From Massilia oculi (GTDB lineage Bacteria > Pseudomonadota > Gammaproteobacteria > Burkholderiales > Burkholderiaceae_D): a stretch of 64,000 nt of DNA. How positions within the stretch are numbered: position 1 is the stretch's first letter; every line of letters begins with the position of its first letter. Both the position numbers and the translations under genes were made by a program. The notes beneath the pieces are model-generated. The model saw only the letters and a program-made list of their open reading frames with translations, ran no database searches and was not told the origin of the DNA. Shown here piece by piece: positions 33,864 through 61,386 of the stretch. The DNA is taken from assembly GCF_003143515.1 (NCBI RefSeq), contig NZ_CP029343.1, positions 1,550,001 through 1,614,000 of the forward strand, read 5' to 3'.

Positions 33864-33881
33864 AGTGCAGACGTCTGCACT
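33864..33881. repeat. 18-bp palindrome, copy 1
   Basis: AGTGCAGACGTCTGCACT, a perfect palindrome, intergenic between the Dam gene end and the small gene at 33511. Identical to the copy at 45494-45511, with near-copies at 54502 and 61117. Confidence 0.85.
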
Positions 33882-33890
33882 ACCCCTTCG

Positions 33891-34676
33891 TTAGAACAGT
33901 CCAGCCGGCTCTGTTGTGCGGTCCCAACTATAGATGATCACTTCTGCGCGCTCGACGCCCTTACCACCACCAACCGTATAGCTGACCGGGACCGTATCCA
34001 TCTGAAAGTCAGCGAACACACGGCGGATCTCGGGATGATCGTTCAGGCTCACGATCGCCTTCCCCTTCAGGCGCTTCATCAGGGCCGCCATCTTCTCGTA
34101 TTCCTTAAGTCCAAAGTCGACACCGTACCCTTCGGTCTCCCAATATGGCGGATCGAGGTAGAACAGCGTATGGGCGCGATCATATCGCTCCATCAGCCTG
34201 TGCCAGTCCATGTTCTCGATGTAGGCGCCCGACAGCCGCAGGTGGGCAGCAGACAAGTTCTCTTCGATCCGCAGCAGGTTGATCGGCGGCGTGGTCGTCG
34301 CCGTGCCCCAGGTCTGTCCTTGCACCTTGCCGCCGAACGCATGATGCTGCAGGTAGAAGAACCTCACGGCGCGCTGGATGTCCGTGAGCGTGTCTGGTGG
34401 CGTCTCCTGATGCCACTTAAAGACCTCACGACTGGCCAGCGCCCACTTGAAGTGCCTTACGAACTCCTCCAGGTGATGCTGCACGACGCGGTACAACCTG
34501 ACCAGCTCGCCGTTGATGTCGTTGATGACTTCAACCTTCGCCGGCGGCCGCATGAAGTAGAGCGCGGCGCCGCCGGCGAAGACTTCGACGTAGCACTCGT
34601 GCGCCGGGAACTGAGGGATGATGTGGTCGGCCAGGCGTCGCTTACCGCCGATCCATGGAATGATGGGTGTTGCCAT
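33891..34676 (-). CDS. DNA adenine methylase (Dam/D12 class)
   Basis: 261 residues, intact. SAM-binding IPWIGGKRRLADHIIPQFP, then ECYVEVFAGGAALYFMRPPA, catalytic FYLDPPYWETEGYG. Family D12 methylases modify N6 of adenine in a short sequence such as GATC. It may shield phage DNA or regulate it. Unlike the prophage 1 version this gene has no frameshift. Start ATG 34676. Confidence 0.93.
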   Translation of the reverse strand: MATPIIPWIGGKRRLADHIIPQFPAHECYVEVFAGGAALYFMRPPAKVEVINDINGELVRLYRVVQHHLEEFVRHFKWALASREVFKWHQETPPDTLTDIQRAVRFFYLQHHAFGGKVQGQTWGTATTTPPINLLRIEENLSAAHLRLSGAYIENMDWHRLMERYDRAHTLFYLDPPYWETEGYGVDFGLKEYEKMAALMKRLKGKAIVSLNDHPEIRRVFADFQMDTVPVSYTVGGGKGVERAEVIIYSWDRTTEPAGLF

Positions 34677-34818
34677 TAGTAAACCTTACAGTTGCGATTG
34701 TGCTAAACTCGCGCCGCCTTCCGGAAGGTGGCAGAGCCTTGCTTGGTTCACTGGCGAGAACAGTGGATCGAGGCCGACATCGGTTGTTGACGCAACCGGC
34801 GCCGGCGCTCTGTCTTTA

Positions 34819-35364
34819 CTACGGGGCGATGGCCCCTACTTCGTAGAAGCCATGCCTTAGAGCCCAGTCCTGCAGCGCGCTTATTTTTTCTCGGAGACGT
34901 TCGGTCTCGAGGTCTGCGTCTCGGACGAGGTCTCGAAGATGCCGCTCAGTCGGCTTTGGTAGCTCGATGTATTCGGTCGCTCTGGCGTCATGAGCGATGA
35001 CGGGACCTGGGGCTTCGGCGCCGCCGGCAGCGGCACACTCGCGGGCAGGGACTGCGATGCGCAGCCGCAGACGATCGGCAGCAGCACGCTCAGCAGCGAT
35101 ACGCTTTTCAGCTTCATTCAGATTCCTCTGGTAGGTGGCCAGGGTGGCCCTGGTAGACACGATGTCCCGTTGTCGCTCGGCTTCGTTATGGGCCACCGCG
35201 ATCCGCACGTCGTGCATGGCCGCGTCCGCACGTTCCGTCTTGTCGCGCTCCCATTCGAGCCGGACATCGTCGGCGCCGAAGTGGTAGCCAGACAGGGCCG
35301 CGATCGATACCGCGCCAAGCAAGGCCGCTCCAACGGCAGCGACCTTCAATTGCTCAACGATCAT
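34819..35364 (-). CDS. Rz-like inner-membrane spanin
   Basis: 181 residues. N-terminal membrane helix (VAAVGAALLGAVSIAALSGYHF), then a long periplasmic helical coiled coil (TLATYQRNLNEAEKRIAAER), as in lambda Rz. The ATG at 35364 overlaps the endolysin gene stop by 4 bp and fits the hydrophobic start. A second gene, Rz1-like, is nested in another frame. Together they fuse the inner and outer membranes at lysis. Confidence 0.85.
   Translation of the reverse strand: MIVEQLKVAAVGAALLGAVSIAALSGYHFGADDVRLEWERDKTERADAAMHDVRIAVAHNEAERQRDIVSTRATLATYQRNLNEAEKRIAAERAAADRLRLRIAVPARECAAAGGAEAPGPVIAHDARATEYIELPKPTERHLRDLVRDADLETERLREKISALQDWALRHGFYEVGAIAP
34881..35117 (-). CDS. Rz1-like outer-membrane lipoprotein spanin, nested
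   Basis: 78 residues, entirely inside the Rz gene in another frame. Lipoprotein signal MKLKSVSLLSVLLPIVCGC with lipobox ending in Cys19, then a Pro-rich stretch (ASVPLPAAPKPQVPSS). This is the classical Rz1 layout. The nested arrangement supports both as real. Confidence 0.8.
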   Translation of the reverse strand: MKLKSVSLLSVLLPIVCGCASQSLPASVPLPAAPKPQVPSSLMTPERPNTSSYQSRLSGIFETSSETQTSRPNVSEKK

Positions 35365-35822
35365 GCTGCTGCTTCCTGGCTGTCGAATCGCTGGAGACTC
35401 CGGCCATTCATGACCGCAATGAGAATCTTCGCGTAATTCGGATCTGTCGCGTAGCCGGCTGCAGCTGCGGCACGAGCCCAACCTTCGCCAGTGCTCTCAT
35501 CGAAGCAGGCCGCATAGCGCGGGTTCACCTTGAAGAAGCGCGCGCGATCGGCGATGCACTCATCAAAGTTGGCGTATGCGCGGAACTTGGCGACCAGGTC
35601 GACGCGCTTGCCGTCCACGTATTCATGGGTCGGTACGTCGACGGTCTTGCCTTTCCAGGAGCGGTTGGCCTTGATGCCGAACAAGTTGTTGCCAGGCGCG
35701 CGCGAACCCCAACCGGATTCGAGCGCAGCTTGGGCGATGGTGAACGAGGCCGGGATGCCATGCTCTCGGTGGACACGTTGGGCGGCCGGCAGTAGCAACG
35801 CAATGAAGGCGGTAGGCGGCAT
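35361..35822 (-). CDS. Endolysin, glucosaminidase/FlgJ-like
   Basis: 153 residues. GH73 muramidase-like: HGIPASFTIAQAALESGWGSRAPGNNLFGIK with catalytic Glu in ALESGWG, then THEYVDGKRVDLVAKFRAY and the ending YATDPNYAKIL. Cleaves peptidoglycan at lysis. Starts 1 bp from the holin gene. No signal peptide, so release depends on the holin. Confidence 0.92.
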   Translation of the reverse strand: MPPTAFIALLLPAAQRVHREHGIPASFTIAQAALESGWGSRAPGNNLFGIKANRSWKGKTVDVPTHEYVDGKRVDLVAKFRAYANFDECIADRARFFKVNPRYAACFDESTGEGWARAAAAAGYATDPNYAKILIAVMNGRSLQRFDSQEAAA

Positions 35823-36199
35823 CAGATGATCTCCCGCACGTCCTTGACCAGATCAGCCAGATCGGCATCGCGGCGCTTCTCGATGAACTTGAACAGCGCG
35901 CGAACAATGACCCAAGCCGGCAAGCCGCACGTGAACATGAAGCCGCCCTGGGCAATCTGGCCCAGCAGGTCATCCGACCAGTGTTCGATACCGAGGTACT
36001 TGATGAGCGCGGCGCCACCGGCGATCGAGCCGACGACGGTGCACGCCAACGCCACGCGCCACTCCTTCTTGCTGCCGGGCGGCGTCATGGCCATCACGAC
36101 GAAGGACGCAAGCCCGGCGCCGATGCCCATGCCGACCAGGCCGCCGATGATTTTCATGCTTGCTGCGCCGGCGGCCGCGCCGGAAATTGGTTCACTCAT
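35822..36199 (-). CDS. Phage holin-like membrane protein
   Basis: 125 residues from ATG 36199. Three hydrophobic segments (KIIGGLVGMGIGAGLASFVVMAM, VALACTVVGSIAGGAALIKYL, GGFMFTCGLPAWVIVRALF) and a charged cytoplasmic tail. In the lysis module before the endolysin, so probably the holin. The class is uncertain. Confidence 0.75.
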   Translation of the reverse strand: MSEPISGAAAGAASMKIIGGLVGMGIGAGLASFVVMAMTPPGSKKEWRVALACTVVGSIAGGAALIKYLGIEHWSDDLLGQIAQGGFMFTCGLPAWVIVRALFKFIEKRRDADLADLVKDVREII

Positions 36200-36291
36200 T
36201 GGGGTTCTTTCGTGGTTAGAAGTCGCCCGGCATGCTGTCCAATTCATGCGCACTTAGGATTACCGGGTGCGCACAGTCTCTCGCTCTAGCG

Positions 36292-36317
36292 GTCCCATTT
36301 CTAGGGAGAAATGGGAC
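36292..36317. repeat. 26-bp hairpin, copy 1 (holin / peptidase gap)
   Basis: Perfect 11-bp inverted repeat GTCCCATTTCT / AGAAATGGGAC around loop AGGG. Identical to copies at 48812-48837 and 50705-50730. All lie in non-coding gaps of the minus-strand late operon. Read on the minus strand this copy is followed by G/C-rich DNA rather than a T-run, so it is not an obvious terminator. Confidence 0.9.
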
Positions 36318-36321
36318 TATT

Positions 36322-36813
36322 TCATGCTTTGCTGCCGCGGAGGTCGACGCGCTGCAGCTTCGGGTGGAAGCACTGGAACAGGTCGTTCGGCGTGACCCGG
36401 TGCGCCTCCGCCGGATCAAGGAGGATCGTGCCGCCGGCCATCAGCAGCGCGAACACCAGCTCGCTGCACCACCAGGTCGACGTGTCGTTCCAATCGTCCG
36501 ACGCCATGAAGGGAATGCCCAGGGCGCCCCCGAAGTCGTAGCCGCGGCCGTCCTGCTCCTCGCCGAAGGCGATCGCCTTCTCGAGGTCAGGTACCCATAC
36601 GGTCATGTCCTGGTACTGGACTACCCCCTTCATCACCTCATCGACTGTCGTCGCCCTGCAGCCGTCGGTCATCGATGCCTCGTAGGCGCGGCCGCCCGCG
36701 ATCGCGACCACGTGACTGAAGAAGCGGGAGCCGGAGCAGCGCGCTATCACCAGGCTCGCCGGGTTCCATGGCCACTTGGTGGTGAACCTTACCGTAACAA
36801 CGCCAGCCGCCAT
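36322..36813 (-). CDS. Permuted NlpC/P60-like tail peptidase
   Basis: 163 residues. His first in SRFFSHVVAIAGG, then catalytic Cys later in WWCSELVFAL. This His-before-Cys order marks the permuted YaeF/YiiX branch of NlpC/P60. Other marks are GYDFGGALGIPF and TPNDLF. Likely cuts peptidoglycan at infection or assembles the tail tip. First gene after the fibre genes. Confidence 0.78.
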   Translation of the reverse strand: MAAGVVTVRFTTKWPWNPASLVIARCSGSRFFSHVVAIAGGRAYEASMTDGCRATTVDEVMKGVVQYQDMTVWVPDLEKAIAFGEEQDGRGYDFGGALGIPFMASDDWNDTSTWWCSELVFALLMAGGTILLDPAEAHRVTPNDLFQCFHPKLQRVDLRGSKA

Positions 36814-36814
36814 C

Positions 36815-37273
36815 TCAGTTCGCCTCCTCGACAGGCCGCGATACCTCCCATCGGATTGCAGCTATTTCTTCCGGCGTACTCGCGGCGGCCAACTGCGCCT
36901 TCAATTCCTGCGAGTGATTGAAGTTCCTGGTGCCCTGGGCGGTCATCGCAGCGTACAGAGCGCGGAAGGCGTCGACGGTGGCCAGATCAAGCATCGAGTT
37001 GTCGAGTGCCTTCCAGCCGCCGGGGAATCCCGTCGGGAACTCACTAAAGAGACCGACGTGATTAGCAACGCCATCGATATCCGAGCGAGACAGCGCATCG
37101 CACGCGAACTGCTTCCCGGCGTGCGGGAACGTGGACATATTTGCGTCGGCGCGCCAGGCGTTGATTTCTTGGTTCTTGGCCGTCTTCATGTCGTCGACGC
37201 TGACGTTGATCTCGGCAAGCTCTGCGGGGGTGGCATCGCGCACAATGCCGTCTACCATAATCTGCTTCGTCAT
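36815..37273 (-). CDS. DUF4376-like tail fibre accessory protein
   Basis: 152 residues. DVDDMKTAKNQEINAWRADANMS, then FPHAGKQFACDALSRSDIDGVANHV matches the DUF4376 pattern (GKxFxxDxxSRxDI) found in tail-fibre assembly proteins. Ends with helical TPEEIAAIRWEVSRPV. One bp from the fibre gene. Confidence 0.7.
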   Translation of the reverse strand: MTKQIMVDGIVRDATPAELAEINVSVDDMKTAKNQEINAWRADANMSTFPHAGKQFACDALSRSDIDGVANHVGLFSEFPTGFPGGWKALDNSMLDLATVDAFRALYAAMTAQGTRNFNHSQELKAQLAAASTPEEIAAIRWEVSRPVEEAN

Positions 37274-38272
37274 TTAATCATTCCTGTGACCGAAAACACG
37301 GATAGTGCCGGCGGTAAAAACATCACTATTGCCGGGGATGATGCGAAACCCTCGAGCGGGTTCTGGCATCGAAATGCCGGCCCCCATCGCGAACTGAAAT
37401 CGGGTGTCGCCAAACCCACGAAATTCAAGACTCTTCAGGACGCCGTTTGCGTTCCGGATCTCAGCCGTTCCAGTAAGGACTGAAGACGATGCGAGGGCGA
37501 GTCCAGACGCGGTTGTGCCATTCCCTGTGAGCACCCCGCCGGAATAGCCAGAGGTAACTACCCCACCTGCCGTCACCAGCTGGAGAACTGGTGTGGTGCC
37601 CGAGCTGGACTTGGACACCCCGTTCAACTCAATCGAGTACTTGTCGTAGATTGGGTTGAAAATGTTCGGATAATCGATCGCCACTAACTGCGACGTAATC
37701 GTTGCAGCGGCAAGCGGATCGACGCTCCTTGCCCCGATCTGGCCCCGATCGCCTGTGCGCTGGAAAAACAGCAACAACGAATCGCCGCTCACAAACGGGC
37801 TGGTCGAGCTACTTCCCGTGCACACCACGGCCAGGTTGCGGTAACCGGCCGGAGCCGTGCGCGCAGAGACGTCGAACGTCATCCATTTACTCATGTCGCC
37901 TTGCTTCGTCAGGCGAATCGTGCCTTTTACCAGGCTGGTCGACGCGTCGAATGTATCGATCAGCGTCGTGTAATCCTGGCCACCTGCTGTCAGGTCAAGC
38001 CGCATCACGGTCGAAGCATTTTGCGCGGCACTGGACAGCCGCAGCTTGCCGGCGCCCGGGTCGGCGTCCGCTGTTGCCGTGTCGAAGGTGTAGGGCAATG
38101 CATACGCGCCGCCGGCCAGCGCTGCATTGAATGCTGCCAGGGTTTCATTGACTTCTCGCCCCCACTTCGGGAAGTTCTGGAAGACATATGCGACCAAGTC
38201 GTCGAACAGCTTCTGCTCTTGGTTACGAGCAGGCATTTTTGACTCATCCAGGAACGTAGTTATCCCTGCCAT
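37274..38272 (-). CDS. Tail fibre/receptor-binding protein candidate
   Basis: 332 residues. N-terminal helical tail-attachment region (QNFPKWGREVNETLAAFNAA), then long Ser/Thr/Gly-rich beta structure (SSSSTSPFVSGDSLLLFFQRTG, TAGGVVTSGYSGGVLTGNG) and a C-terminal strand. Composition fits a phage fibre or receptor-binding protein. No enzyme motif seen. Overlaps the next gene by 1 bp. Confidence 0.7.
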   Translation of the reverse strand: MAGITTFLDESKMPARNQEQKLFDDLVAYVFQNFPKWGREVNETLAAFNAALAGGAYALPYTFDTATADADPGAGKLRLSSAAQNASTVMRLDLTAGGQDYTTLIDTFDASTSLVKGTIRLTKQGDMSKWMTFDVSARTAPAGYRNLAVVCTGSSSTSPFVSGDSLLLFFQRTGDRGQIGARSVDPLAAATITSQLVAIDYPNIFNPIYDKYSIELNGVSKSSSGTTPVLQLVTAGGVVTSGYSGGVLTGNGTTASGLALASSSVLTGTAEIRNANGVLKSLEFRGFGDTRFQFAMGAGISMPEPARGFRIIPGNSDVFTAGTIRVFGHRND

Positions 38273-39315
38273 TAAACAGCTCCTTCAATTGTGAAACTCA
38301 TAAGTGATTGAATTTGATACTGGATGACGATCTTGAAGCTGCCGTATCGACCGGCGATGATCGTGCTGCCGAAGCTCCCGCCCCCAAAGAAGACCAGCAT
38401 CTTCTGCCGGCGCTCGAACAGCCACGCATTCAAGTAATCGATCTGATGGTTATCCACCACCACGTCCAACGTCATACGCTTTGCGTACGGCCTCAACGTG
38501 GTTTTGCTGGTACCGTCCATGTTGAAGGTCGTGCTCGAGTAGTCCTTGCCCTCGAGTCCCATCCCAAGAAGCGTCGGGCCGAACTCGTCGACAGGCCCGA
38601 GGGCGCACATGCCGCACTTGGCTATTCCGCCGATTTTCCTGATCGAGATCGTGACTAGCGCTTTGGCGTAGACTGGCAATTGCAATGTGCCGAAGTAGTC
38701 CTTCCGCTTGATGCGCTTGAAGCACCAGTTAAAGAACGAGCTCCCCGACGTGGACTGCACCAGTTCAGTGGTCTCGCTGTACACGATTCCCTCTGTCGGA
38801 TCGACCACGCTGATACGGACTTCATCAGCGAACACGTTGCCCAGGTAGAGGCCCTGGCTGATCGTCTCAGGCGCGAGAACGATCAGTATTTCATCGGGCA
38901 TCTCCGTCTGTGTGTTGTTGTATTCGTCAAGCATCTTCCATCGGTTCGTCACGCCGCGAGGCGTCCAGGCCGAGGTGTCGGTCATCGCCTTGCCGATGTT
39001 GTTGGCGATAAGCGACTGGAACACGCTGTGGGACGCCGGGTCGTATACCAGCGCGTCTTTCGCATAAGTGCTGGTCGCGCTATAGACCGATTCAGGGATC
39101 GGCACGTTGGAATACACAAGGCCGGCACCGCTACCGATGACCTCACCGGCATCAAGCAGCGCATATGGCGCCTTGCCGAGATCGGCTTGGTCGTACGTCA
39201 CCCGCAGCGTGTTCGGCGCAGCGGTCTGCTGGGCGCCGTTGCGATCGAAGTACGACGCCGGCGCCGCCCGCGTGCAGGTCACGTCGCCGAAGGTCACTGG
39301 GTCAAGAACGATCAT
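38272..39315 (-). CDS. Distal tail protein with carbohydrate-binding-like segment
   Basis: 347 residues. Beta-rich. VYSATSTYAKDALVYDPASHSVF then TDTSAWTPRGV resembles small carbohydrate-binding modules (ChiC/CBM5-like) found in phage tails. Central half has FFNWCFKRIKRKDYF and the end is beta-strands with NHQIDYLNAWLFERRQKM. Adhesion or tail-tip role is inferred from position between tape measure and fibre. Confidence 0.65.
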   Translation of the reverse strand: MIVLDPVTFGDVTCTRAAPASYFDRNGAQQTAAPNTLRVTYDQADLGKAPYALLDAGEVIGSGAGLVYSNVPIPESVYSATSTYAKDALVYDPASHSVFQSLIANNIGKAMTDTSAWTPRGVTNRWKMLDEYNNTQTEMPDEILIVLAPETISQGLYLGNVFADEVRISVVDPTEGIVYSETTELVQSTSGSSFFNWCFKRIKRKDYFGTLQLPVYAKALVTISIRKIGGIAKCGMCALGPVDEFGPTLLGMGLEGKDYSSTTFNMDGTSKTTLRPYAKRMTLDVVVDNHQIDYLNAWLFERRQKMLVFFGGGSFGSTIIAGRYGSFKIVIQYQIQSLMSFTIEGAV

Positions 39316-43648: not shown

Positions 43649-44004
43649 TTCTTTCGTTCACTCCATCCTGACAAGGTCGCGCGCTCCATCGCTTGCACTT
43701 CCGAAAACAACTTGGGCCATTCCTTGCGCCTGATCTTCCACGCATCGCGCACCACGAGGACGCTCTGGTAATTCAGACCAACCGCGCCGCCTGGCCCGAC
43801 GACCCACTGGGTCGACACGGCCTGGAAGAAGTTCCAGGCCTTGACACATTCAGGCCAAAGGTAGAGAGGTTCGGCCCGTTGCCGCTCATAGACCGGCGCC
43901 AAGCCGAATGCCGCCGCGGCCTCGCTGACAGCCTCGTCGTCCAGCTCCTCCTGGTCTTCGTCGACGATCCAGCCCAGGGCCGCGTAGCGCGCGACCTGCG
44001 CTAG
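43645..44004 (-). CDS. Tail assembly chaperone GT extension (-1 frame, DUF1799)
   Basis: 119 residues read after a -1 shift: LAQVARYAALGWIVDEDQEELDD, then AAAAFGLAPVYER and a Trp-rich end EPLYLWPECVKAWNFFQAV. Such DUF1799 parts are made only as fusions to the upstream G protein. The shift site is A AAA AAC at 44004-44010, just before the G stop. The fusion would be 235 residues. Independent starts at 44049 are unlikely. Confidence 0.85.
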   Translation of the reverse strand, partial: LAQVARYAALGWIVDEDQEELDDEAVSEAAAAFGLAPVYERQRAEPLYLWPECVKAWNFFQAVSTQWVVGPGGAVGLNYQSVLVVRDAWKIRRKEWPKLFSEVQAMERATLSGWSERKK

Positions 44005-44351: not shown

Positions 44352-44391
44352 GATTTTTCCTGTGTCGATGCGGGCCAGGCGGCCCGCGTGG

Positions 44392-45378: not shown

Positions 45379-45381
45379 GTG

Positions 45382-45567
45382 TTACTCCTGTTCTTTCGGT
45401 TCACGGACCGGTTCGATCTTGACGAGCTCGCCGGTACCAACATTTCGGACGTAGCTGCCGCCCACCGCAGGGTCTTGCTGCGGCGCGGGCACCAGTGCAG
45501 ACGTCTGCACTTCGTCAGCGTTGACCAGATCCGGCGTACTCGCGCCGGCGGTTTTCAGGTATTTCAT
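45382..45567 (-). CDS. Small tail-module protein carrying the palindrome
   Basis: 61 residues: MKYLKTAGASTPDLVNADEV then TSALVPAPQQDPAVGGSYVRNVGT. Pro/Ala-rich and probably unstructured. It contains the 18-bp palindrome as codons for VQTSAL. It overlaps the next gene by 4 bp. Unknown function; similar peptides occur between terminator and tube genes in some phages. Confidence 0.5.
   Translation of the reverse strand: MKYLKTAGASTPDLVNADEVQTSALVPAPQQDPAVGGSYVRNVGTGELVKIEPVREPKEQE
45494..45511. repeat. 18-bp palindrome, copy 2 (in a gene)
   Basis: AGTGCAGACGTCTGCACT, identical to 33864-33881, within codons of the 61-residue tail-module gene. Its persistence inside coding DNA suggests selection for the DNA site. 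Confidence 0.85.
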
Positions 45568-50428: not shown

Positions 50429-50430
50429 CG

Positions 50431-50661: not shown

Positions 50662-50704
50662 TGGACGCTCCTTGATCTGAGCGCCCAACACTACCTACGG
50701 CGCA

Positions 50705-50730
50705 GTCCCATTTCTAGGGAGAAATGGGAC
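50705..50730. repeat. 26-bp hairpin, copy 3 (gpW / Mor gap)
   Basis: Third identical GTCCCATTTCT-AGGG-AGAAATGGGAC, between the Mor-like gene stop and gpW. No T-run in transcription direction. All three copies are intergenic, 14.4 kb apart at most, and lie upstream of morphogenesis genes on the minus strand. Confidence 0.9.
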
Positions 50731-50765
50731 TGGATGAGCGCACCATCGGAGCAGCTCAATGCACA

Positions 50766-53119: not shown

Positions 53120-53634
53120 GGCGCGAGCTCCTCGCCCTCGGCGTCGTCCTCTTCTTCGTCAGGCTCGCGCAGATCCTCCAGCGACATGACGGCGACCACG
53201 TTGCGCACGCGCGCGATCTCGCCCGCGATGTTCTTGATCTCGTCGCCCGACAAGCTGGGCACCCGGCGCTTCACGGCACCAGGGATCGCCTCCAGGATGC
53301 CGGCGATGCGGCCGCCGGCCTTGGACAGCACTTCCTCGATCAGTGCGACGGGCGCCAGCTCGCCGCGCGTGACCGCGTTCTGCATCTCGATCTTTTCGCG
53401 CTGCGCCTTTGCCAGGCCTGCGCGCTCGGTCGCCAGGTCCAGCTCGCCATTGGCGGCGCGGCCGGCCGCCTGTTCGCGCAGGTGCGAGCAGTACGCAAGC
53501 AGTAGCTGCTCGGCGTCCATCCCCTTGTCGAGGACGCCTCTGCCGACCAGGTTGCCGATGGCCTGCTGGCTGACACCGACGAGCGCACCGAATGCTGCCT
53601 GTGTCATCGGCATGGTTAGATCAATGGTGGACAA
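53116..53634 (-). CDS. Terminase small subunit, Nu1-like
   Basis: 172 residues from TTG 53634 (AAGGGG ahead); ATG at 53613 is the alternative. N-terminal HTH (TQAAFGALVGVSQQAIGNLVGRGVL) as in lambda Nu1, then helical LDLATERAGLAKAQREKIEMQ and acidic C-terminus. Recognises cos and recruits the large subunit. Overlaps the next gene by 4 bp. Confidence 0.8.
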   Translation of the reverse strand: MSTIDLTMPMTQAAFGALVGVSQQAIGNLVGRGVLDKGMDAEQLLLAYCSHLREQAAGRAANGELDLATERAGLAKAQREKIEMQNAVTRGELAPVALIEEVLSKAGGRIAGILEAIPGAVKRRVPSLSGDEIKNIAGEIARVRNVVAVMSLEDLREPDEEEDDAEGEELAP

Positions 53635-53733
53635 TACAACCCCCTTAGGACGGGTCTGTGACTAGAGAAAACTCGGGGTTCGAATTACCCTTGAAGGGCC
53701 CCCTCCCGGGAGTACCTTGGAAATCGCAAAAGG

Positions 53734-54489
53734 TCAGCGCTGCGTCGCCCGCGCCTCGGCCAGCGCGCGGCTGAACTCGCCGGCGAAGTGCTGTTCGATC
53801 GTCGACGTGGCCACGTAGTCGAAGTCGAATGTCTTCTGGTAGACGACGTTGCGCACGAAGATCATCACCGCCCTGATTGCCGTGCCTCGTGCGAAGTGGA
53901 CGCGCTGGTAGACCCCGAGCGGAAGGCGATCACCTGGGCGCCCAACGAAGTAGGAAACGCCCTGGCGCGTCCTGCTCCCGCGCTGCAGCGCCTCCCGCCG
54001 CTTGTCGCTCATGTTCGCCTTATACCCAGCTTCCGGGAACGCCCTGAGGTACGCGAGAATCTGGACGATCTGGCCGCGGTTCATGTTGCCGTAGGCGTCC
54101 AGCTCTGCACCTTCGCCGGGGACGACACGATAGCCAGGCGGCAGCGCGCCGATCGACTCCAGCGCGCGCTCGAAGCGCTTCTGTCCGCGAGTGCCACCTT
54201 TGATCTGCGCCTCCAGGTATTTCGCTGCCGGCGTGCTGCTCTTGCTGGCGAAGTCCTTGAGCTTGACCTCGGCGGTCAGGTTCGATGCTGTCGCCGGCCG
54301 CACGAAAAGGCCCGACATCGTGAACGGCGTGGGCCGGTCGAAGCTGTCCCGCATTTCATGCTGCTCTGCGGCCTCGACTCTCTTAGCCGTCCGGGTCAGA
54401 GCTACACGCGTGGCGAACTTCACCTGCTTTTCCTCCACCAGGGTTCCGGTGGTGAGCTGCCTGATCGCATCGCGCACGTCGACTGCCAT
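53734..54489 (-). CDS. Hypothetical virion-module protein
   Basis: 251 residues. Helical N-terminus (VDVRDAIRQLTTGTLVEEKQVK, RVEAAEQHEMRDSFDRP), basic middle (RQGVSYFVGRPGDRLPLGVYQ) and C-terminal helix with FDFDYVATSTIEQHFAGEF. Not recognised. It precedes terminase on the same strand, a common place for a phage-specific virion gene. The 18-bp palindrome near-copy at 54502 lies just upstream of ATG. Confidence 0.55.
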   Translation of the reverse strand: MAVDVRDAIRQLTTGTLVEEKQVKFATRVALTRTAKRVEAAEQHEMRDSFDRPTPFTMSGLFVRPATASNLTAEVKLKDFASKSSTPAAKYLEAQIKGGTRGQKRFERALESIGALPPGYRVVPGEGAELDAYGNMNRGQIVQILAYLRAFPEAGYKANMSDKRREALQRGSRTRQGVSYFVGRPGDRLPLGVYQRVHFARGTAIRAVMIFVRNVVYQKTFDFDYVATSTIEQHFAGEFSRALAEARATQR

Positions 54490-54501
54490 CGTTCTTCCTT
54501 C

Positions 54502-54517
54502 GTGTAGACGTCTGCAC
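54502..54517. repeat. 16-bp near-palindrome, copy 3
   Basis: GTGTAGACGTCTGCAC matches GTGCAGACGTCTGCAC in 15 of 16 bases. Intergenic, 13 bp before the ATG at 54489. Third member of the palindrome family. Confidence 0.75.
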
Positions 54518-54650
54518 AAGACGCAGCGGTCGATGGCGAGCGTCATCCACAACCTGCGCCGATTCGGCGTCCAGCGTTCGCTTGAGGTTCGGGATTGGAG
54601 CCACTATCATGGGCTCCGACGGTTTGCCAGGTGACGGCGCTGTCGTGCTG

Positions 54651-54686
54651 AAAACAAAAAAGCCCGCGACCTTTCGGGGCGGGCTT
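54651..54686 (-). terminator. Terminator after gene at 54730
   Basis: On the minus strand AGCCCGC (54661-54667 complement) pairs with GCGGGCT, followed by TTTTTTGTTTT. It ends the 54730 transcript before the terminase genes. Confidence 0.85.
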
Positions 54687-54729
54687 TGCTCGTGTGTTAG
54701 ACGCAATATCGACATCTAGGACGCGTATC

Positions 54730-55194
54730 CTAATGGAAATATCGTCTCGTGGCAATATTCCGTTGCATTGCCCTGGACAGCGTGCGCTCGGCCTCCTCCA
54801 AAGCCTGCTCGTAGGAGTGCTCGGGGAACCGCCACACCGTGGCGATTCCGAACGCCTTGCGCACCGCCCACCACTGGATGCGCGGCAGGTTGTCGATCAT
54901 GATCTCGACCGCCGAACCGCATGCCATGAATTCTTTCACGTCCTGCGGGTTTGCCCACCCATTCGAGTGCTGCTGATCAGCCAGCGTCATCCAGCGCGCC
55001 CAGGTCTTCATCACCTTCCGAAACGGGCTGTCCCGCTCGACATCCGCGCCGCCTACACCGCGGCTGCTTAAGACCATCTCGCCCACCCCATCCGCAGCCG
55101 CGGCTACTTCGATCCATTCGTTCGCCTCGTGTTGCATCTGCACCCCTTCCATATCCTGCCCCTTTGCTGTTCTCACATTCATCGTCACTGCCAT
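54730..55194 (-). CDS. Phage early/late protein, function unknown
   Basis: 154 residues from ATG 55194 (AAGGG ahead); upstream starts at 55341 (ATG) or 55359 (TTG) lie in the inverted repeat and are less likely. MQHEANEWIEVAAAADGVGE, then WARWMTLADQQHSNGW and EEAERTLSRAMQRN. Similar proteins precede the late genes in related phages, perhaps acting as late regulator. No domain recognised. Confidence 0.5.
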   Translation of the reverse strand: MAVTMNVRTAKGQDMEGVQMQHEANEWIEVAAAADGVGEMVLSSRGVGGADVERDSPFRKVMKTWARWMTLADQQHSNGWANPQDVKEFMACGSAVEIMIDNLPRIQWWAVRKAFGIATVWRFPEHSYEQALEEAERTLSRAMQRNIATRRYFH

Positions 55195-55318
55195 GGCCGG
55201 CCCTTGCCGGGTTGCTCCCCACCTGTCCTTCAACATCGGCCATCCCTGCATCCGGACTGCCTGTATCCACTGCTCGCCCTGCTTTCGATCCGTCCAACCG
55301 CTGAAGGGTTGGCGAAAA

Positions 55319-55521
55319 GGTTGGACGGCTGGAACCCGCATGGATGCTGTGTTTGCCAACCTCCCAACCTACCTAACCTCTTTCTAAGTTCTGCCAGAAG
55401 GGGCAAGAGCCACATCGACCCGTCGCGCACGTATACGCGGGTGTGCGCGGGGGCGCGTGTCGGTTGGCGAGGTTGGGAGGTTGGGAAACCCACTATCCAT
55501 GCGGGTTTCAGCCGTCTAACC
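55319..55521. repeat. Long inverted repeat with nested hairpin
   Basis: Arms 55319-55378 and 55462-55521 pair over ~60 bp (about 50 matches) around an 83-nt loop. A third part-copy at 55534-55546 (GGTTGGACGGCTG) pairs with the same right-arm segment to form a local 14-bp hairpin (about 55510-55545, one mismatch). The two folds exclude each other. It lies between the 54730 gene and the primase gene, with no other gene between 55360 and 55659. Confidence 0.7.
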
Positions 55522-55659
55522 TCAAAAAAGCGAGGTTGGACGGCTGTCCGTCCTTGGGCGAGAATCGCTACCTTGAGCAGCGACGACAGCACCTTTTCCG
55601 CTTGCGCACGATGCGCCCGCGATCCCTGGTGAGTCGCCGTCATGATCACGGCTGCGTGT

Positions 55660-58164
55660 TTAATTTGGCAGGCCATTTCCCACCTCGCCCCCTGCAGAAG
55701 CTGCCTTCGGCCGCTCGTAAAAATACTCGCGTGCGCCTTCCGTACTCCGCTCCTTGCTCCATCCCAGCTTGCGCATGATCGCGCCGATACGCATCGTCTC
55801 TGCCCGCGCTGGCCCCATCTTCGACAACTCGAAGTGCAGCGCCCTGGTCAGCAGCTCGCGCGCGGTGATGCGCGTGACCTTGCCAACCATCGTCGGCTTG
55901 CCTTCGGTGTCCATCCCTTCCAGATATTCGTACACGCGTCCATGCCATGGATCCGGGATCTCGCGGCTTTCCTGCATCGGACTGATCAGGCGCTGCTGCT
56001 GCTCGTATGTCGGCCACCACTGGACGCCGGCATTCATCAGCGCAATCGCTTCGCCGAATAGCTGGTCGCGATCCGCGATCAGCGCTTCAATATCGAGGCG
56101 CCCCGTCTCGACCGGCCAGAAGCGCCGGTTCCCGGTTGAGTCCTTGAAATAGGCGTCTTCGTTCGTCGTCGCGGCGAAAGCGCATCGGCGCGGCATGTTC
56201 TTCATGCGGCGGCCGTATGGCTCGCGGAAGCGGTCGACGGTGCTGGACATGAAGGCCTTGATGGCTGTGACCTCGGAACGGTTGAACTGCTCGAGCTCGG
56301 CGACCTCATACAGCAGCACCCCCTGGATCGACAAGTAGCCGTCCTTCTCGCCCATCCGGAAAGGCGTGTCGGCAAACCAGTCGCCGCCCAGCACCTTGAG
56401 CGCGGTCGATTTACCACGGCCCTGGCCGCCTTCGAACACTGGCGCGTGGTCGTTCTTTACCCCCGGCCGGTAGCCGCGGACCACGATCCCGATGAAGAAC
56501 ATCGTGGCCACCAGCCGCAGGTACTCCGAGTCGGCTGCGCCCCAATACGTGGTGAAGGCCGTCGCTACCCGCGCCTGCCCGTCCCACATGGATGCGCAGC
56601 GGTCGAAGTAATCCACGACCGGATTGAAGGAATGTTCGCGTGCTGCCTGAGCGACACCGCGCTCGATGTCGCCGATCGACGCCAGGACGAGGCTGTGATG
56701 CTCGGCCATGTACATGCCCAGGCGGAAATCGTCGGACTCGGTCCATTCGCCTGGCTCGCTTGGCCATGGTGTCGGGCGGCGCTTCATCTGTAGGCCGGAG
56801 AACATGTCCAGGCCGACCAGGCCGATCAGGCGCGGGTCGTTCTCCATCACCATGTAGACGTTCTCACGGCACCCCTTCACGCCGCCGTTCGCCGTCTGGA
56901 TCAGCATCTGGCGAAGCTGCTTCTTCGACACGCCCGCGCCAGCCGGCAGTGGGGTGGAAGCACCTGCCGGCGCCGCGTCGAGTTGCTCGGCTACCCATGC
57001 TGGCACATCGTCAGCAGACGGCTCCTGCACCAGCTCGTCGTCGTCCTCGGCCGCCTGATCGGCTCGCAGCCTAGTGAGCCAGGCGACGACCTGCTCCTCG
57101 GTGGCGCCGCCATCGATCAGGTCGGCAATATCCCACCCATCGGCCACATCGCCAGGTGCAGGAATATCGATGAAGAACACGCTGCAGTCCTGCGCCTGCA
57201 GGATCGCCGCGACCTGGACCATGGCGACCATGCCCGGCTGCTCACATTCAGGCATGATCTGGCCGGCGTATTCGTGGCCTTCCTTGTAGACCTTGGCGTC
57301 GGCGTCAGCCCACAGGATCACGTTGCGGCCGCGGATCGCGGACCAATCAGATTTTTTGACAGCCTTGCCGCCGCCGGACCACGTCAGCACCTCGAAGTTC
57401 TCATGTACGGCCTGCAGCCCAACAGCCTTATCGACGCACTTCTCGCCCTCGAGGACCAGCACCGGCAGTTCGGGCCGGTGTGGCCCACGCAGATAGAGCG
57501 GCCTCGGCTCAGGGAAGGCCATCCACCGCCATTCCTTCCGTCCGGAGTCCGCGTTGCGCGCATAAACGCAGGGCAGCACTTCCTTGCCCCCGTCAGAACG
57601 CAGGAACCGGTAGATCACGCCGAGCAGTTGGCCATCGACGTCGCGGTATTCCCAGGATGCTTCGGGTCGGCCACGGACCACGTGGGCTTTCGGTGGCGGT
57701 CCAGCGTCCTGCGGGACCGGCAGCATCGGCTCCCATGGCGTCCGCGATTTTTTTTCGGCAGGTGCTTCTACCCCTTTGCCGGCTTGCGCAGGCGTGCGAT
57801 TAGGGGGCTGTTTCGGCTTCAAGACAATCGGTGCGCTTCCGTTACCACTCGGCTTATCGCGCGGGGTCAGCGGAATACCAAGGCGCTCGGCCAGGGCCGC
57901 GCAGGCGCGGCCAGGAGAGAGGCTGTTGACGAAGGCGTAGAGCGAGATCAGATCGCCGCCGGCTTCGCCGTCGGAGAAGTCAGACCAGACCCCGGCCTTG
58001 TCGCCGGTGAGACGAATGCGCAGCGACTGGCCAGCCTCACCGTCGCGCGATCCAATGCAGAATTCGTGGCCTTCCCGCACGCCGTTCGGGAACCATTCGG
58101 CGAGGAGAGTTTCAATTTGGTTGAGCGCTGCGCGCCCAACAGCAATAAAATCTTGACCGGTCAC
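55660..58164 (-). CDS. Primase-helicase, TOPRIM-VapE type
   Basis: 834 residues. N-terminal DUF3854/TOPRIM half with VLVLEGEKCVDKAVG and VILWADADAKVY (acidic metal site); C-terminal VapE/VirE ATPase with GGQGRGKSTALKVLGGDW (Walker A). The end is helical with TARELLTRALHFELSKM. Primes and unwinds phage DNA. Overlaps the next gene by 4 bp. Confidence 0.92.
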   Translation of the reverse strand: MTGQDFIAVGRAALNQIETLLAEWFPNGVREGHEFCIGSRDGEAGQSLRIRLTGDKAGVWSDFSDGEAGGDLISLYAFVNSLSPGRACAALAERLGIPLTPRDKPSGNGSAPIVLKPKQPPNRTPAQAGKGVEAPAEKKSRTPWEPMLPVPQDAGPPPKAHVVRGRPEASWEYRDVDGQLLGVIYRFLRSDGGKEVLPCVYARNADSGRKEWRWMAFPEPRPLYLRGPHRPELPVLVLEGEKCVDKAVGLQAVHENFEVLTWSGGGKAVKKSDWSAIRGRNVILWADADAKVYKEGHEYAGQIMPECEQPGMVAMVQVAAILQAQDCSVFFIDIPAPGDVADGWDIADLIDGGATEEQVVAWLTRLRADQAAEDDDELVQEPSADDVPAWVAEQLDAAPAGASTPLPAGAGVSKKQLRQMLIQTANGGVKGCRENVYMVMENDPRLIGLVGLDMFSGLQMKRRPTPWPSEPGEWTESDDFRLGMYMAEHHSLVLASIGDIERGVAQAAREHSFNPVVDYFDRCASMWDGQARVATAFTTYWGAADSEYLRLVATMFFIGIVVRGYRPGVKNDHAPVFEGGQGRGKSTALKVLGGDWFADTPFRMGEKDGYLSIQGVLLYEVAELEQFNRSEVTAIKAFMSSTVDRFREPYGRRMKNMPRRCAFAATTNEDAYFKDSTGNRRFWPVETGRLDIEALIADRDQLFGEAIALMNAGVQWWPTYEQQQRLISPMQESREIPDPWHGRVYEYLEGMDTEGKPTMVGKVTRITARELLTRALHFELSKMGPARAETMRIGAIMRKLGWSKERSTEGAREYFYERPKAASAGGEVGNGLPN

Positions 58165-58580
58165 GTAGTCGCCTTCTCTACGTGATCGACGAGTTCATTC
58201 GCCATGCGCGAGGGGATGTCGCGATATGCGAGCGAACCTGGCCGCATCGACACCAGGCGTGGGCGATTCTTGAGGGACAGCGGCCGCATCGGCGGCGCGT
58301 AGCGGCCGGGCGTCACTACCGCGACCTCGGCTACTGGCGCCGGCTCTGGCTCTACAAGCTGGCGGCCCCAGACCGTCAGCAGTACCGTCTCGTTGGTCCT
58401 GACCACGAGGCCCTGGCGCTCGAGCAGTCCGATGACGGCCACGTCGAACTCCGCGCGCGCACGCGGATAAACTACTGCGCGAAGCAGCGCTGTCGGCGTC
58501 GACGTCCCGCCACACCGCACTAGGTGAAGCAAGACCGAATGTGCGCGGCTTCCTGCGCGCGGCAGACGATGCAGTGTCAT
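58161..58580 (-). CDS. Winged-helix-like early protein
   Basis: 139 residues. N-terminal ~65 like a winged helix (RAHSVLLHLVRCGGTSTPTALL, RARAEFDVAVIGLLERQGLVV), then a Pro-rich linker with a recurring PGRYAPPMRPLSLKNRPRL, RPGSLAYRDIPSRM tail seen in related phages. Probable regulator or primase partner. Overlaps both neighbours by 4 bp. Confidence 0.6.
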   Translation of the reverse strand: MTLHRLPRAGSRAHSVLLHLVRCGGTSTPTALLRAVVYPRARAEFDVAVIGLLERQGLVVRTNETVLLTVWGRQLVEPEPAPVAEVAVVTPGRYAPPMRPLSLKNRPRLVSMRPGSLAYRDIPSRMANELVDHVEKATT

Positions 58581-59038
58581 TCCGCCTCCCTCCCGCCCTG
58601 CGGTGCATAGATGCGCAACGTAAGCGCGAGGAGTTCGGCGACGACCTTGTGCAGCTCGGCGGCGTCGTGCTCGAGGATGGCCTGCTCACGACGGTCGATC
58701 AGGTCGTCCGCCGTCGCCGCGGTAAAGTCCTTGGAAAACTCTCCCAGTCGCGCATAGAGCGTCTGGAACTTGGACATCAGCAGCTCGTTACCTTCGTCGA
58801 GATCGTCAGGCAGCTTGAGGAAGGTGCCGCCGCTCGCGGTTGCGATCGCCTCGGCAAAGTGGGTGGTCTGCGAGAACGCCTGGATCTGCAGCGCGGTTTC
58901 GACCGTGACGCCTTGCCCCTTGCGCTCATACACGCGGTTCTCGAGCGCGTCACGGCTCATGCCTAACGCGCCCGCCATAGCATCCCAGCCACCGGGAAAT
59001 GCCTTGATCATGGACAGGTAAGATTGCCTCAGGTTCAC
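58577..59038 (-). CDS. Phage CII-family regulator
   Basis: 153 residues. MNLRQSYLSMIKAFPGGWDAMA, SRDALENRVYERKGQGVTVET and ALQIQAFSQTTHF: a helix-turn-helix with a helical tail as in CII/YmfL. Activates lysogeny promoters. It is the counterpart of prophage 1's CII at 14950-15387. Confidence 0.85.
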   Translation of the reverse strand: MNLRQSYLSMIKAFPGGWDAMAGALGMSRDALENRVYERKGQGVTVETALQIQAFSQTTHFAEAIATASGGTFLKLPDDLDEGNELLMSKFQTLYARLGEFSKDFTAATADDLIDRREQAILEHDAAELHKVVAELLALTLRIYAPQGGREAE

Positions 59039-59184
59039 AACTGCCTCTCTTTCACTGTGGTTGCCGCGACCTACGCGTCAACCTATTCTTGCAATATGGA
59101 TACTTATCCTGCGATTTTATTTCCGTATGGAAACTTTATAGACGTGACTCAACTGCAACGTAGTGCTGACGCTAGTTGAATTTG

Positions 59185-59502
59185 TTAAGCCGACTGCTCT
59201 TCAGGGCAGGTAATGGTGAGCAGCGAAATATCTGCGAAAGACTCATCGTCAGCCTGGCCGGCGCCCGCTGTTCGAGCGGGTTGCGTAAGGGCTAGCTCCG
59301 GCCATATCAGTTCCCAGTCATCGGGACGAAGCTCAGGCCGCGTGACCTCCCCCTCAGTTGCGCGTTCGATCGCAACACAACGCTCCGGAGGAATAGGACG
59401 CTTAGCATTCGCCCATTGATTGATCAACACTGGCGTGATGCCGAGCTTCGTCGCGAGCTCGCGCTGGGTGGCCCGGGTTTTGACGTAGTCGAGTAGTTTC
59501 AT
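59185..59502 (-). CDS. YdaS-like Cro repressor
   Basis: 105 residues. MKLLDYVKTRATQRELATKLG and ITPVLINQWANAKRPIPPER: the YdaS_antitoxin-type HTH. Its promoter (TTGCAC 59533-59538, 17-bp spacer, TATAGT 59510-59515) starts ~7 bp before the ATG, so the transcript is likely leaderless, as in prophage 1. Prevents repressor re-establishment in lytic growth. Confidence 0.85.
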   Translation of the reverse strand: MKLLDYVKTRATQRELATKLGITPVLINQWANAKRPIPPERCVAIERATEGEVTRPELRPDDWELIWPELALTQPARTAGAGQADDESFADISLLTITCPEEQSA

Positions 59503-59509
59503 GGCACAG

Positions 59510-59577
59510 ACTATAGCAATTTGCTTTTGATCGTGCAATAGCAATTTGCGCATTCCATACATAAGCGTTTTGCTTTT
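59510..59577. promoter_or_regulatory. Cro promoter and three operators of prophage 2
   Basis: Operators ATAGCAATTTGCTTTT (59513-59528), ATAGCAATTTGCGCAT (59538-59553) and the weaker TAAGCGTTTTGCTTTT (59562-59577) share an AGCAA-T-TTGCT core. The -10 box TATAGT and -35 box TTGCAC overlap the first two. Same layout as prophage 1 with unrelated sequence. Confidence 0.78.
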
Positions 59578-59587
59578 AAATTGATAC

Positions 59588-60280
59588 ATGACAACCGTAA
59601 AAGAATTACGCCTCGAGAACCTCAGGTCATTGGTCGCTGAGTTCAAGACAGCAGATGCTGTCGCGCAGCGGGCACAAACCGCCCCCATGTATCTCAGTCA
59701 GATCTTGAACGGTGCTAAATCGTCTACAGGTAACGCACGCGGAATTGGCGACAAGCTGGCGCGCAAGCTGGAAGAAGGCTGCGGTAAGGAAGTTGGCTGG
59801 ATGGATAGACCGCATCGTAACGTCGCTGCACAGTTCGATGAGAATGTCGTTCCTGCGGCAGTTGGTCTGCGACCAGTACCCGTGATTTCATCAGTTCAAG
59901 CTGGCGCGCTTAGGGATATGGAGAGCCCGTATCCGCCCGGCGCCGGCTACGCCTATGAGTACACGGATCAAGATCTGTCGGCATGGGCGTTCGCACTTGA
60001 CGTCGAAGGCCTTTCAATGCTGCCCGACTTCCGGCCAGGCGATCGCATCATTGTCGACCCGGATATGGCTCCGAACCCTGGAGACTTCGTAGTCGCTCGT
60101 AACGGCAGTGCGCAGGCCACCTTCAAAAAATACCGCCCGCGCGGTATTGATGCGGCAGGAAATGAAATCTTCGAGCTTGTACCGCTCAACGACGACTATC
60201 CAACGCTTCGTAGCGATACTGAGCTGTTGTCGGTCATAGGCGTAGTTACCGAACATCGGAAAAAGTTAAGAAAGCAGTAG
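59588..60280 (+). CDS. S24-type CI-like repressor
   Basis: 230 residues. HTH in the N-terminal ~65 (TADAVAQRAQTAPMYLSQILNG), cleavage site Ala-Gly in VQAGALRD, nucleophile Ser in VEGLSMLPDFRPGD and general-base Lys in QATFKKYRP. Autocleaves with RecA. Drives the lysogenic state together with the HIRAN gene. The ATG at 59588 lies just after operator 3. Confidence 0.9.
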   Translation: MTTVKELRLENLRSLVAEFKTADAVAQRAQTAPMYLSQILNGAKSSTGNARGIGDKLARKLEEGCGKEVGWMDRPHRNVAAQFDENVVPAAVGLRPVPVISSVQAGALRDMESPYPPGAGYAYEYTDQDLSAWAFALDVEGLSMLPDFRPGDRIIVDPDMAPNPGDFVVARNGSAQATFKKYRPRGIDAAGNEIFELVPLNDDYPTLRSDTELLSVIGVVTEHRKKLRKQ

Positions 60281-60295
60281 GAGCAACAGCCACGC

Positions 60296-60679
60296 ATGAG
60301 GGATGAAGTACCTAAAATTAGCGGTCCTGGGTATTACCGCATTAACGTAGCGGGAGAGAGTTTCTATCGCGATAGTCTCATTCGAATTTGCGGCCCGCGG
60401 CGCGAGGATGGCGTCAACATCGAGACCTACGCGGAATTGGTCCTGCAGGACGATAATCCTTACGACAAGTTTGCGGTCCAGGTATGGATCGACGGACATC
60501 AGGTCGGGCACCTTCCCCGCGAGTCAGCCCGCGCTTTCCGTCGTATCGTCCGCTATGGGCAGCTGAGTCAGCATGAACGGTTCAAATGCGCTGCCGTTAT
60601 TAGAGGCGGTTGGGATCGCGGCGCTGGCGACCACGGTGACTACGGGGTGCGGCTAGACCTTCCTCAGGACGACGATTAA
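60296..60679 (+). CDS. HIRAN-domain protein
   Basis: 127 residues. YRINVAGESFYRDSLIRICG, then LQDDNPYDKFAVQVWIDGHQVGHLPRE match the HIRAN fold (conserved NxxDxxAVxV and GxVGYLxR-like). HIRAN binds ssDNA 3' ends and stalled forks in larger proteins such as HLTF; here it is stand-alone and coexpressed with the repressor. Possible genome-sensing or superinfection role. 15 bp from the repressor stop. Confidence 0.83.
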   Translation: MRDEVPKISGPGYYRINVAGESFYRDSLIRICGPRREDGVNIETYAELVLQDDNPYDKFAVQVWIDGHQVGHLPRESARAFRRIVRYGQLSQHERFKCAAVIRGGWDRGAGDHGDYGVRLDLPQDDD

Positions 60680-60717
60680 CAAACACCGGTATTACGCACT
60701 CACGCAGCCGCTCGAAG

Positions 60718-60741
60718 ACCCGCCTTGCGCGGGTTTTTTTT
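60718..60741 (+). terminator. Terminator of the repressor-HIRAN operon
   Basis: ACCCGC, loop CTTGC, GCGGGT followed by eight T. It separates the lysogeny cassette from the distal early promoter. Confidence 0.9.
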
Positions 60742-60790
60742 CGTCCGTTACTAAGCGGAGATACCTTTCCTTCTGGCCACCCATCCAAAT

Positions 60791-60834
60791 AAAAGCAAAT
60801 TGCTCTTGCTCGTCTAAAAGCAAATTGCTATAGT
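60791..60834 (+). promoter_or_regulatory. Distal early promoter of prophage 2 with two operators
   Basis: Operators AAAAGCAAATTGCTCT (60791-60806) and AAAAGCAAATTGCTAT (60816-60831), 25 bp apart, are the reverse complement of the cro-side operators. TTGCTC (60806-60811), 17-bp spacer, TATAGT (60829-60834). Nearly copies the cro promoter. Confidence 0.82.
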
Positions 60835-60865
60835 TGCGCTCGTAGTGTCAACCACCGAGGGCAAC

Positions 60866-61006
60866 ATGATTCCGTTTCGCGTCACCGTAGCCACCAAAGC
60901 CGGCCGGCTCACCTACTTCGTAGTCTCGTCCTCGAGCTACGAAGCGTGGCTTGAGGCTGCAAGCCGATTTGAACAGCCACATCCGATCTCGGTGGTACGG
61001 GCATGA
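60866..61006 (+). CDS. Small first gene of the early operon
   Basis: 46 residues: MIPFRVTVATKAGRLTYFVV then SYEAWLEAASRFEQPH. Has GAGGG ahead of ATG, 32 bp from the promoter -10. Stop overlaps the next ATG. Similar small MIPFRV-type genes follow this promoter in related prophages. Unknown function. Confidence 0.6.
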   Translation: MIPFRVTVATKAGRLTYFVVSSSSYEAWLEAASRFEQPHPISVVRA

Positions 61007-61386
61007 GCGCTGCAACAACAGCACGTCCGCCGAAAGGCAAAGCTCGCGTCGGCACCGGCAACCTCAGCCAGGCCTTACATCATGCACGCGACCGCAATGC
61101 CCTGAATCGCTTCTGCAGTGCACACGTCTGCACTCCGGCCGAAGTGTCGGAAGACGGCATGCATCTGCACCTGCCCAGCGTTCTCCAGCTCATGCGAACC
61201 CGTGGCTACGAAGTTTCCGCGCCGATCAAACCTCAGCATCAGCCGAAAGCCCGGCAGGGCCTCACTGCATGGGTCGTGCACATCCGCGTCCGACACGTCG
61301 AGTTCGATGTCGCTTTTTATATGCCGACGGCGGTCGGGAACGGCGCCGCTAACAAACCCCAACTTTCCAGACTGGAGCATGCATGA
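61003..61386 (+). CDS. Early protein carrying the palindrome
   Basis: 127 residues: helical N-terminus (ALHHARDRNALNRFCSAHVC), then LHLPSVLQLMRTRGYEVS and a beta-rich ending AWVVHIRVRHVEFDVAFYMP. Small phage regulator-like protein, not recognised. It contains palindrome copy 4 and overlaps the ParB gene by 4 bp. Confidence 0.55.
   Translation: MSAATTARPPKGKARVGTGNLSQALHHARDRNALNRFCSAHVCTPAEVSEDGMHLHLPSVLQLMRTRGYEVSAPIKPQHQPKARQGLTAWVVHIRVRHVEFDVAFYMPTAVGNGAANKPQLSRLEHA
61117..61134. repeat. 18-bp palindrome, copy 4 (near parB)
   Basis: AGTGCACACGTCTGCACT, 17 of 18 with the perfect palindrome, inside the gene just before the ParB-H-NS gene. parS-like sites commonly lie next to parB. Confidence 0.75.

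Follow-up and report, generated by a model that had tools for sequence, protein, structure and literature searches.

A dispersed 16-bp palindrome as a candidate parS-like loading site for an orphan ParB in a Massilia oculi prophage and related temperate phages

Introduction

In chromosomal ParB–parS systems the parS site reads GTTTCACGTGAAAC, and in the temperate phage N15 the inverted-repeat (IR) sites lie apart in the genome. The chromosomal ParB proteins (Spo0J; PDB 6t1f, 7bm8, and 1vz0) combine an N-terminal CTP-binding fold with a helix-turn-helix (HTH) domain and act on a 16-bp palindrome. KorB of plasmid RK2 is reported to be a ParB-family CTPase clamp that works with KorA and slides from its 16-bp operator (OB) far enough to reach promoters at distances of up to 1.5 kb (PMC11790492), and N15, a linear plasmid prophage that requires active partition, is reported to have four IR centromere sites for the ParB-type protein SopB (PMC7205306). 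Shigella VirB is described as a ParB-derived CTP switch that activates plasmid genes and counteracts H-NS. Orphan ParBs are reported to be common, widespread, and often uncharacterized, with divergent members frequent on plasmids and prophages (PMC12704722). Here we describe an orphan ParB of a Massilia oculi prophage and a palindrome that recurs across the same prophage. The window analyzed is the 64,000-nucleotide stretch from position 1,550,001 to 1,614,000 of contig NZ_CP029343.1, and all coordinates without another label refer to it.

Results

The palindrome (site 1, AGTGCAGACGTCTGCACT) is present at four places in the window (Table 1). The initial annotation had described four copies, two in coding DNA and two in gaps, with one beside the ParB gene and a very small probability of chance recurrence, and each of these points was borne out: (i) the copies at 33864 and 45494 are perfect, the copy at 61117 has one mismatch, and the third copy starts at 54501; (ii) the copies at 45494 and 61117 are coding and those at 33864 and 54501 are intergenic; (iii) site 4 is 249 bp upstream of parB; and (iv) a scan of the window with the 18-mer at up to 3 mismatches gave exactly four matches, whereas 100 shuffles gave 0.04 on average and never more than 1. 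Neighboring sites are 11.6, 9.0, and 6.6 kb apart. In the 5,844,653-bp genome, the core GTGCAGACGTCTGCAC at up to 2 mismatches occurred at no place beyond the four sites, and the reversed control pattern gave 0 matches in the same scan. Use of the motif by the host was dropped as an explanation, the rest of the genome being without further copies at this tolerance. The two coding copies are read in different frames, which indicates that the DNA rather than a peptide is conserved. A promoter and terminator scan of 53500–61500 gave a result no better than shuffles.

The motif and the ParB were found together in viral contigs. An exact scan of IMG/VR for the 16-mer returned at least 120 stretches, and a control palindrome of the same composition returned 3 stretches in all of IMG/VR. 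Of 64 motif contigs with a length of 30 kb or more, counted by eye, the first 50 as listed were taken; they had 1–8 sites each (up to 2 mismatches) and no match to the reversed control. ParB_N was detected in 46 of them, once per contig, at 43–108 bits and in frames of 511–920 aa. A background set was drawn from 80 matches listed for an arbitrary 14-mer, among which 30 contigs reached 30 kb and 28 were used; ParB_N was present in 9 of these 28 contigs at E 0.001 and in 6 over the cut-off, with a best score of 37.5 bits, and the motif was present in none of the 28.

The converse direction was examined with alignment A1, which contains ParBs of motif phages only and served as the bait for the ParB-first searches and for the whole-genome test. 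The best 80 of 553 A1 loci supplied 35 contigs that were 30 kb or longer and had not previously been scanned for the motif; 28 of these had it, at 2–7 sites each. When genome_contigs was queried with the single ParB, no matches were obtained. With the primase-helicase of Table 1 as the bait, the motif was found in 21 of 22 contigs and ParB_N in 14; of the eight contigs without ParB, seven end less than 5 kb from the helicase gene and the remaining one is G325 (described below).

The same association was observed among 294 genomes of the family, in which this ParB type was defined by an A1 match with E at most 1e-90 (22 genomes), the motif was allowed up to 1 mismatch, and counts were compared by Fisher tests. 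Genomes with this ParB versus those without had at least one site in 20/22 versus 27/272 cases, at least two sites in 19/22 versus 9/272, and at least four sites in 16/22 versus 0/272. The reversed pattern occurred as one copy each in 5 of the 294 genomes. The two ParB genomes without the motif are G074, in which the match has two stops, and G253, in which it is partial. In all of the 13 ParB loci (12 genomes) with listed sites, 2–6 sites lie on the same contig within 45 kb of the ParB. The motif is thus not equally common without the ParB, a point that the initial annotation had proposed to check: the association runs both ways, in viral contigs and in whole genomes.

Gene sharing was compared among 33 motif sequences, namely 30 contigs, the window prophage, and the phages Aval and VarioGold, on the basis of open reading frames (ORFs) of at least 70 aa and BLASTP scores above 50 bits. 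Relatives of the window ParB were present in 29 of the 33. Each ParB frame used as the query recovered 26–30 sequences, except for one that recovered 7 and is presumably that of the divergent G306. The highest non-ParB counts (20–24) came from frames whose coordinates place them antisense to parB; after these, the most widely shared real family reached 19. In 30 of the 33 sequences (the others being G305, G313, and G314), the motif, or a form 1–2 letters off, was the top or tied-top repeated near-palindrome; the Aval form is GTGCACACGTGTGCAC, with five copies.

These 33 sequences contain 154 sites (up to 2 mismatches to GTGCANACGTNTGCAC), which yield the consensus WGTGCAGACGTCTGCACW, and 75% of the sites have an A or T next to the core. 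Sites were spaced more evenly than under a uniform distribution in 22 of the 27 sequences with at least four sites (mean coefficient of variation 0.54 versus 0.72), as would suit loading points that serve the whole genome.

The window ParB matched PF02195 (80.7 bits) and PF17762 (50.1 bits), both over the curated cut-offs, and TIGR00180 at 124.4 bits (cut-off 58.45); by its predicted ParB_N and HTH_ParB domains, the protein is a member of the ParB superfamily. In alignment A1 the tail is variable, a Cys4 region is present, and the nucleotide (CTP) boxes are conserved, with G[EA]RR kept in 28/29 proteins and EN.[QH]R in 29/29. The nearest solved structures by profile match were those of ParB, Spo0J, and Noc, with a weaker match to KorB. 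The AlphaFold2 model of the window ParB was of moderate quality (pLDDT 80, pTM 0.50). ParA (PF13614; other ParA-type families were not searched) was found in 0 of the 50 motif contigs, a set that includes the close relatives G295 and G308 but not the prophage of the window itself, and a ParA-binding motif was found in the N-terminus of 0/29 and 0/79 readable ParBs (two overlapping sets).

An H-NS domain was found in 4 of the 46 ParBs of motif contigs and in 5 of the 29 aligned A1 proteins, and is therefore an optional feature. The initial annotation had suggested a parS-like site for a ParB–H-NS protein or a site for another phage regulator; the ParB part of this suggestion was supported by the association, the recognition helix, and the gene sharing, and the H-NS tail as a feature coupled to the motif was dropped because only 4 of 46 ParBs carry the domain. 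A second amendment to that suggestion is that the sites make up a scattered and rather even array. Separately, H-NS C-terminal domains were observed at differing tail positions in divergent ParBs (61383–63350, L350, L337, L349, and L388), as if the domain had been gained or lost several times.

Comparison of this locus with the described systems revealed that (i) the chromosomal ParB proteins are the closest match (profile E about 2e-59), although here the palindrome is a different one, no PF13614 ParA or ParA-binding motif was found, the sites are scattered on a phage, and the protein has an additional Cys4 region and a long variable tail; (ii) KorB chains matched at 4e-21, that is, the sequence is far more distant; (iii) N15 is likewise a temperate phage with four inverted-repeat sites and a ParB-type protein, whereas the phages described here have integrases in the cases seen and lack a PF13614 ParA; (iv) the match to PRTRC ParB (TIGR03734) spans the N-domain, the HTH, and the Cys region (140 bits, residues 43–306), and scores of 126–143 bits in four proteins are far under the curated cut-off of 278.6; and (v) VirB, compared by description only, resembles this ParB as a ParB-derived protein, and a link between its anti-H-NS action and the H-NS tail found here would be speculative.

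The recognition helix differed between ParBs with and without the motif. A Tyr at the key (seventh) position was present in 28/28 motif-positive contigs (27 by pattern and the last one by inspection) and in all 29 A1 ParBs, the motif-type helix being mostly [KQR]S[RK]xY[VI]Y. The seven ParB contigs without the motif have a helix like QTRTYVAQ, with Ala at the seventh position in six and Thr in one. These seven (G404, G407, G412, G414, G416, G419, and G425) are phage contigs of 48–58 kb with a related ParB.

A site also lies within parB itself in 21 of 30 parB genes, 758–935 bp past the start codon taken and over the codons of the Cys4 region (mostly ADVCT). A site within about 1.6 kb upstream of parB was found in 18 of the 30, and one or the other in 28, the two without either being G306 and G314. 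Among 100 readable motif-type parB genes (two overlapping sets, with some contigs counted twice), the inner site was an exact 16-mer match in 30, and alanine was encoded there in 76; the codon was GCA in 69 of these 76 versus 19.8% GCA across the same genes, a preference that points to selection on the DNA itself. The window's own parB has no inner site (5 mismatches).

Beyond the viral contigs, an exact scan of genome_contigs returned at least 119 stretches; of the 80 listed, 51 belong by title to what we take, from the names, to be Betaproteobacteria, and the others are scattered. One record from an Acidobacteria bin (L544) contains three exact 16-mer copies inside 1.8 kb. Another, NZ_CP083453.1 from Comamonas odontotermitis (L620), is filed as a 36.9-kb circular plasmid and is a temperate phage with an integrase, a ParB, and seven sites (up to 2 mismatches to the degenerate form). 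The 16-mer had no occurrence in open-licence PMC text, a scope outside which preprints fall, and, judged by titles and the beginnings of abstracts, none of the papers listed in searches of that literature dealt with these sites; "parS" has 0 occurrences in the accessible part of the VarioGold paper (PMC9658991).

The prophage lies at the 5′ end of a gene (30443–31435), next to the integrase, that we take to be dusA-like. The 20-bp repeat at 31383 and about 67920 suggests a prophage length of about 36.5 kb. Between the gene of the CI-like repressor and parB lies a gene for a small HIRAN-domain protein (60296–60679). The coordinates of the features are listed in Table 1.

Table 1. Palindromic sites and principal features of the prophage (positions in the window).
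Feature	Position	Strand	Description
Site 1, AGTGCAGACGTCTGCACT	33864..33881	.	Perfect; between genes, 9 bp past the stop end of a DNA methyltransferase ORF (33891–34676, minus)
Site 2	45494..45511	.	Perfect; within a 61-aa ORF (45382–45567, minus; start codon chosen by the authors) in the late head/tail region; translated VQTSA
Site 3, core GTGTAGACGTCTGCAC	54501..54518	.	1/16 mismatches (3/18 over the full length); 11 bp upstream of the ATG of ORF 53734–54489 (minus; start codon chosen by the authors)
Site 4, AGTGCACACGTCTGCACT	61117..61134	.	1/18 mismatches; within ORF 61003–61386 (plus), 249 bp upstream of parB; translated AHVCT
Tyrosine integrase ORF	31314..32555	+	Adjoins the presumed dusA
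att-like 20-bp repeat	31383 and about 67920		Marks the likely att sites
VapE-type primase-helicase	55660..58164	-	Bait picked regardless of ParB or motif
CI-like repressor with S24 peptidase domain	59588..60280	+	Upstream of parB, same strand
Small ORF without family match	61003..61386	+	Holds site 4; overlaps the parB start
Orphan ParB, 655 aa	61383..63350	+	ParB_N 47–130, HTH_ParB 133–220, Cys4 zinc-ribbon-like region about 260–288 (by eye), H-NS C-terminal domain 606–641

Discussion

It is highly probable, in our judgment, that the palindromes serve as parS-like sites at which the ParB of the phage itself is loaded and from which it would slide along the phage genome as a CTP-gated clamp. 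The association and the helix, both read from sequence, make the sites very likely targets of this ParB; binding, sliding, and the outcome are proposed by analogy, and sliding-clamp loading is what we infer for the family from ParB, KorB, and VirB biochemistry. The ParB dimer would recognize the 16 bp through its HTH, and the site-bound ParB would take up CTP, close as a clamp, and slide to neighboring DNA. With several sites located several kilobases apart, such clamps could reach much of a 30–45-kb phage genome. The likely result would be that the phage genome is organized or covered and that phage transcription is controlled, together with parB itself, which has a site in it or just upstream of it. 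We favor genome-wide loading with transcriptional effects as the role of the clamp.

In its widest form, this proposal concerns a large temperate phage group, chiefly from Betaproteobacteria and with no detected ParA, which would have a genome-wide ParB–parS-like system of its own, in which evenly scattered 16-bp sites allow a CTP-gated clamp to cover the whole genome as phage chromatin or as a switch rather than for partition. We put this forward tentatively, at a confidence that falls short of even. A possible, though somewhat doubtful, alternative that overlaps with the loading-site model and is compatible with it is a regulator like KorB or VirB, in which the ParB would mainly silence or activate certain phage promoters, such as those of the parB operon and the late genes, and genome-wide loading would be incidental. 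The fact that 28 of 30 parB genes have a site inside them or no more than about 1.6 kb upstream, the position of site 3 only 11 bp before a start codon, and the reported sliding of KorB from its 16-bp operator to promoters (PMC11790492) are consistent with this alternative; the intragenic location of 8 of the 11 sites in the annotated phages Aval and VarioGold and of 2 of the 4 in the window, together with the more even than random spacing, argues against it.

Partition of a plasmid-like prophage, with the sites as a centromere and with ParA supplied by the phage or the host, appears unlikely. The ParB fold, the palindromes, the N15 precedent (PMC7205306), and the circular 36.9-kb Comamonas "plasmid", itself a phage of this type, speak for it. 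However, PF13614 (the only ParA-type family searched) was found in 0/50 contigs and the ParA-binding motif in 0/29 and 0/79 ParBs, and ParABS partition was dropped for these reasons; furthermore, the window has an integrase and an att-like repeat, and the Comamonas phage has an integrase too. Less likely still is that another phage protein, co-inherited with the ParB, binds the palindrome: association alone cannot name the binder and a small ORF precedes parB, but the next family, after removal of the parB-antisense frames, is shared by at most 19 of 33 sequences, the helix difference sits in ParB, and the preferred site is inside parB. Chance, coding constraint, or a host-wide motif is negligibly probable, since the single sites in 18 of the 272 genomes without this ParB and the single reversed-control copies in 5 of 294 are outweighed by the shuffles (0.04 versus 4), the genome scan with none elsewhere, the reversed control (0 in 50 contigs), the codon choice with its wobble-level constraint, and the differing reading frames, on which this explanation was dropped.

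Several observations weigh against the loading-site model. Four of the 50 motif contigs lack ParB_N: G319 stops short of the expected parB locus; G325 has a repressor, an integrase, and five sites, with a defence-like NACHT ATPase (L367:11586-14621) at the place expected for parB; G299 has no ParB in 40,000 of its 40,659 bp, and its early genes gave no match to any of six reference phages; and G322 has one site. A second motif cluster in G129 (G129:C1:4265001-4305000) likewise has no ParB in 40 kb. Some phages might have replaced parB yet kept the sites, possibly to use or evade the ParB of another phage. Only one or two sites are present in 8 of the 50 motif contigs, ParB_N is also present in 1 of the 3 control-palindrome contigs, some genome records from outside the Betaproteobacteria have two or three copies as well, and, of the 272 genomes without this ParB, 9 have at least two sites and 18 a single one. 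What the converse tests sample is close relatives, since A1 was built from motif phages and the best 80 of 553 loci were kept, and kinship among the sequences inflates all P values, which are thus a guide only. The seven motif-negative ParBs are alike, and the helix contrast may therefore represent one evolutionary event; no alternative palindrome was found for these phages among near-palindromes of 14–18 bp (G425 without its last 8.4 kb) or exact palindromes of 10–14 bp, only a GC-rich background. Finally, even spacing is no proof of coverage.

If the palindromes are, as is probable, where the phage ParB is loaded, one large phage family gains a specific candidate DNA target, dozens of naturally occurring site arrays, and a candidate recognition code in the helix residue, Tyr versus Ala or Thr. 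What a ParB without a ParA does thereby becomes directly testable, and the motif may serve as a marker for such phages in sequence data.

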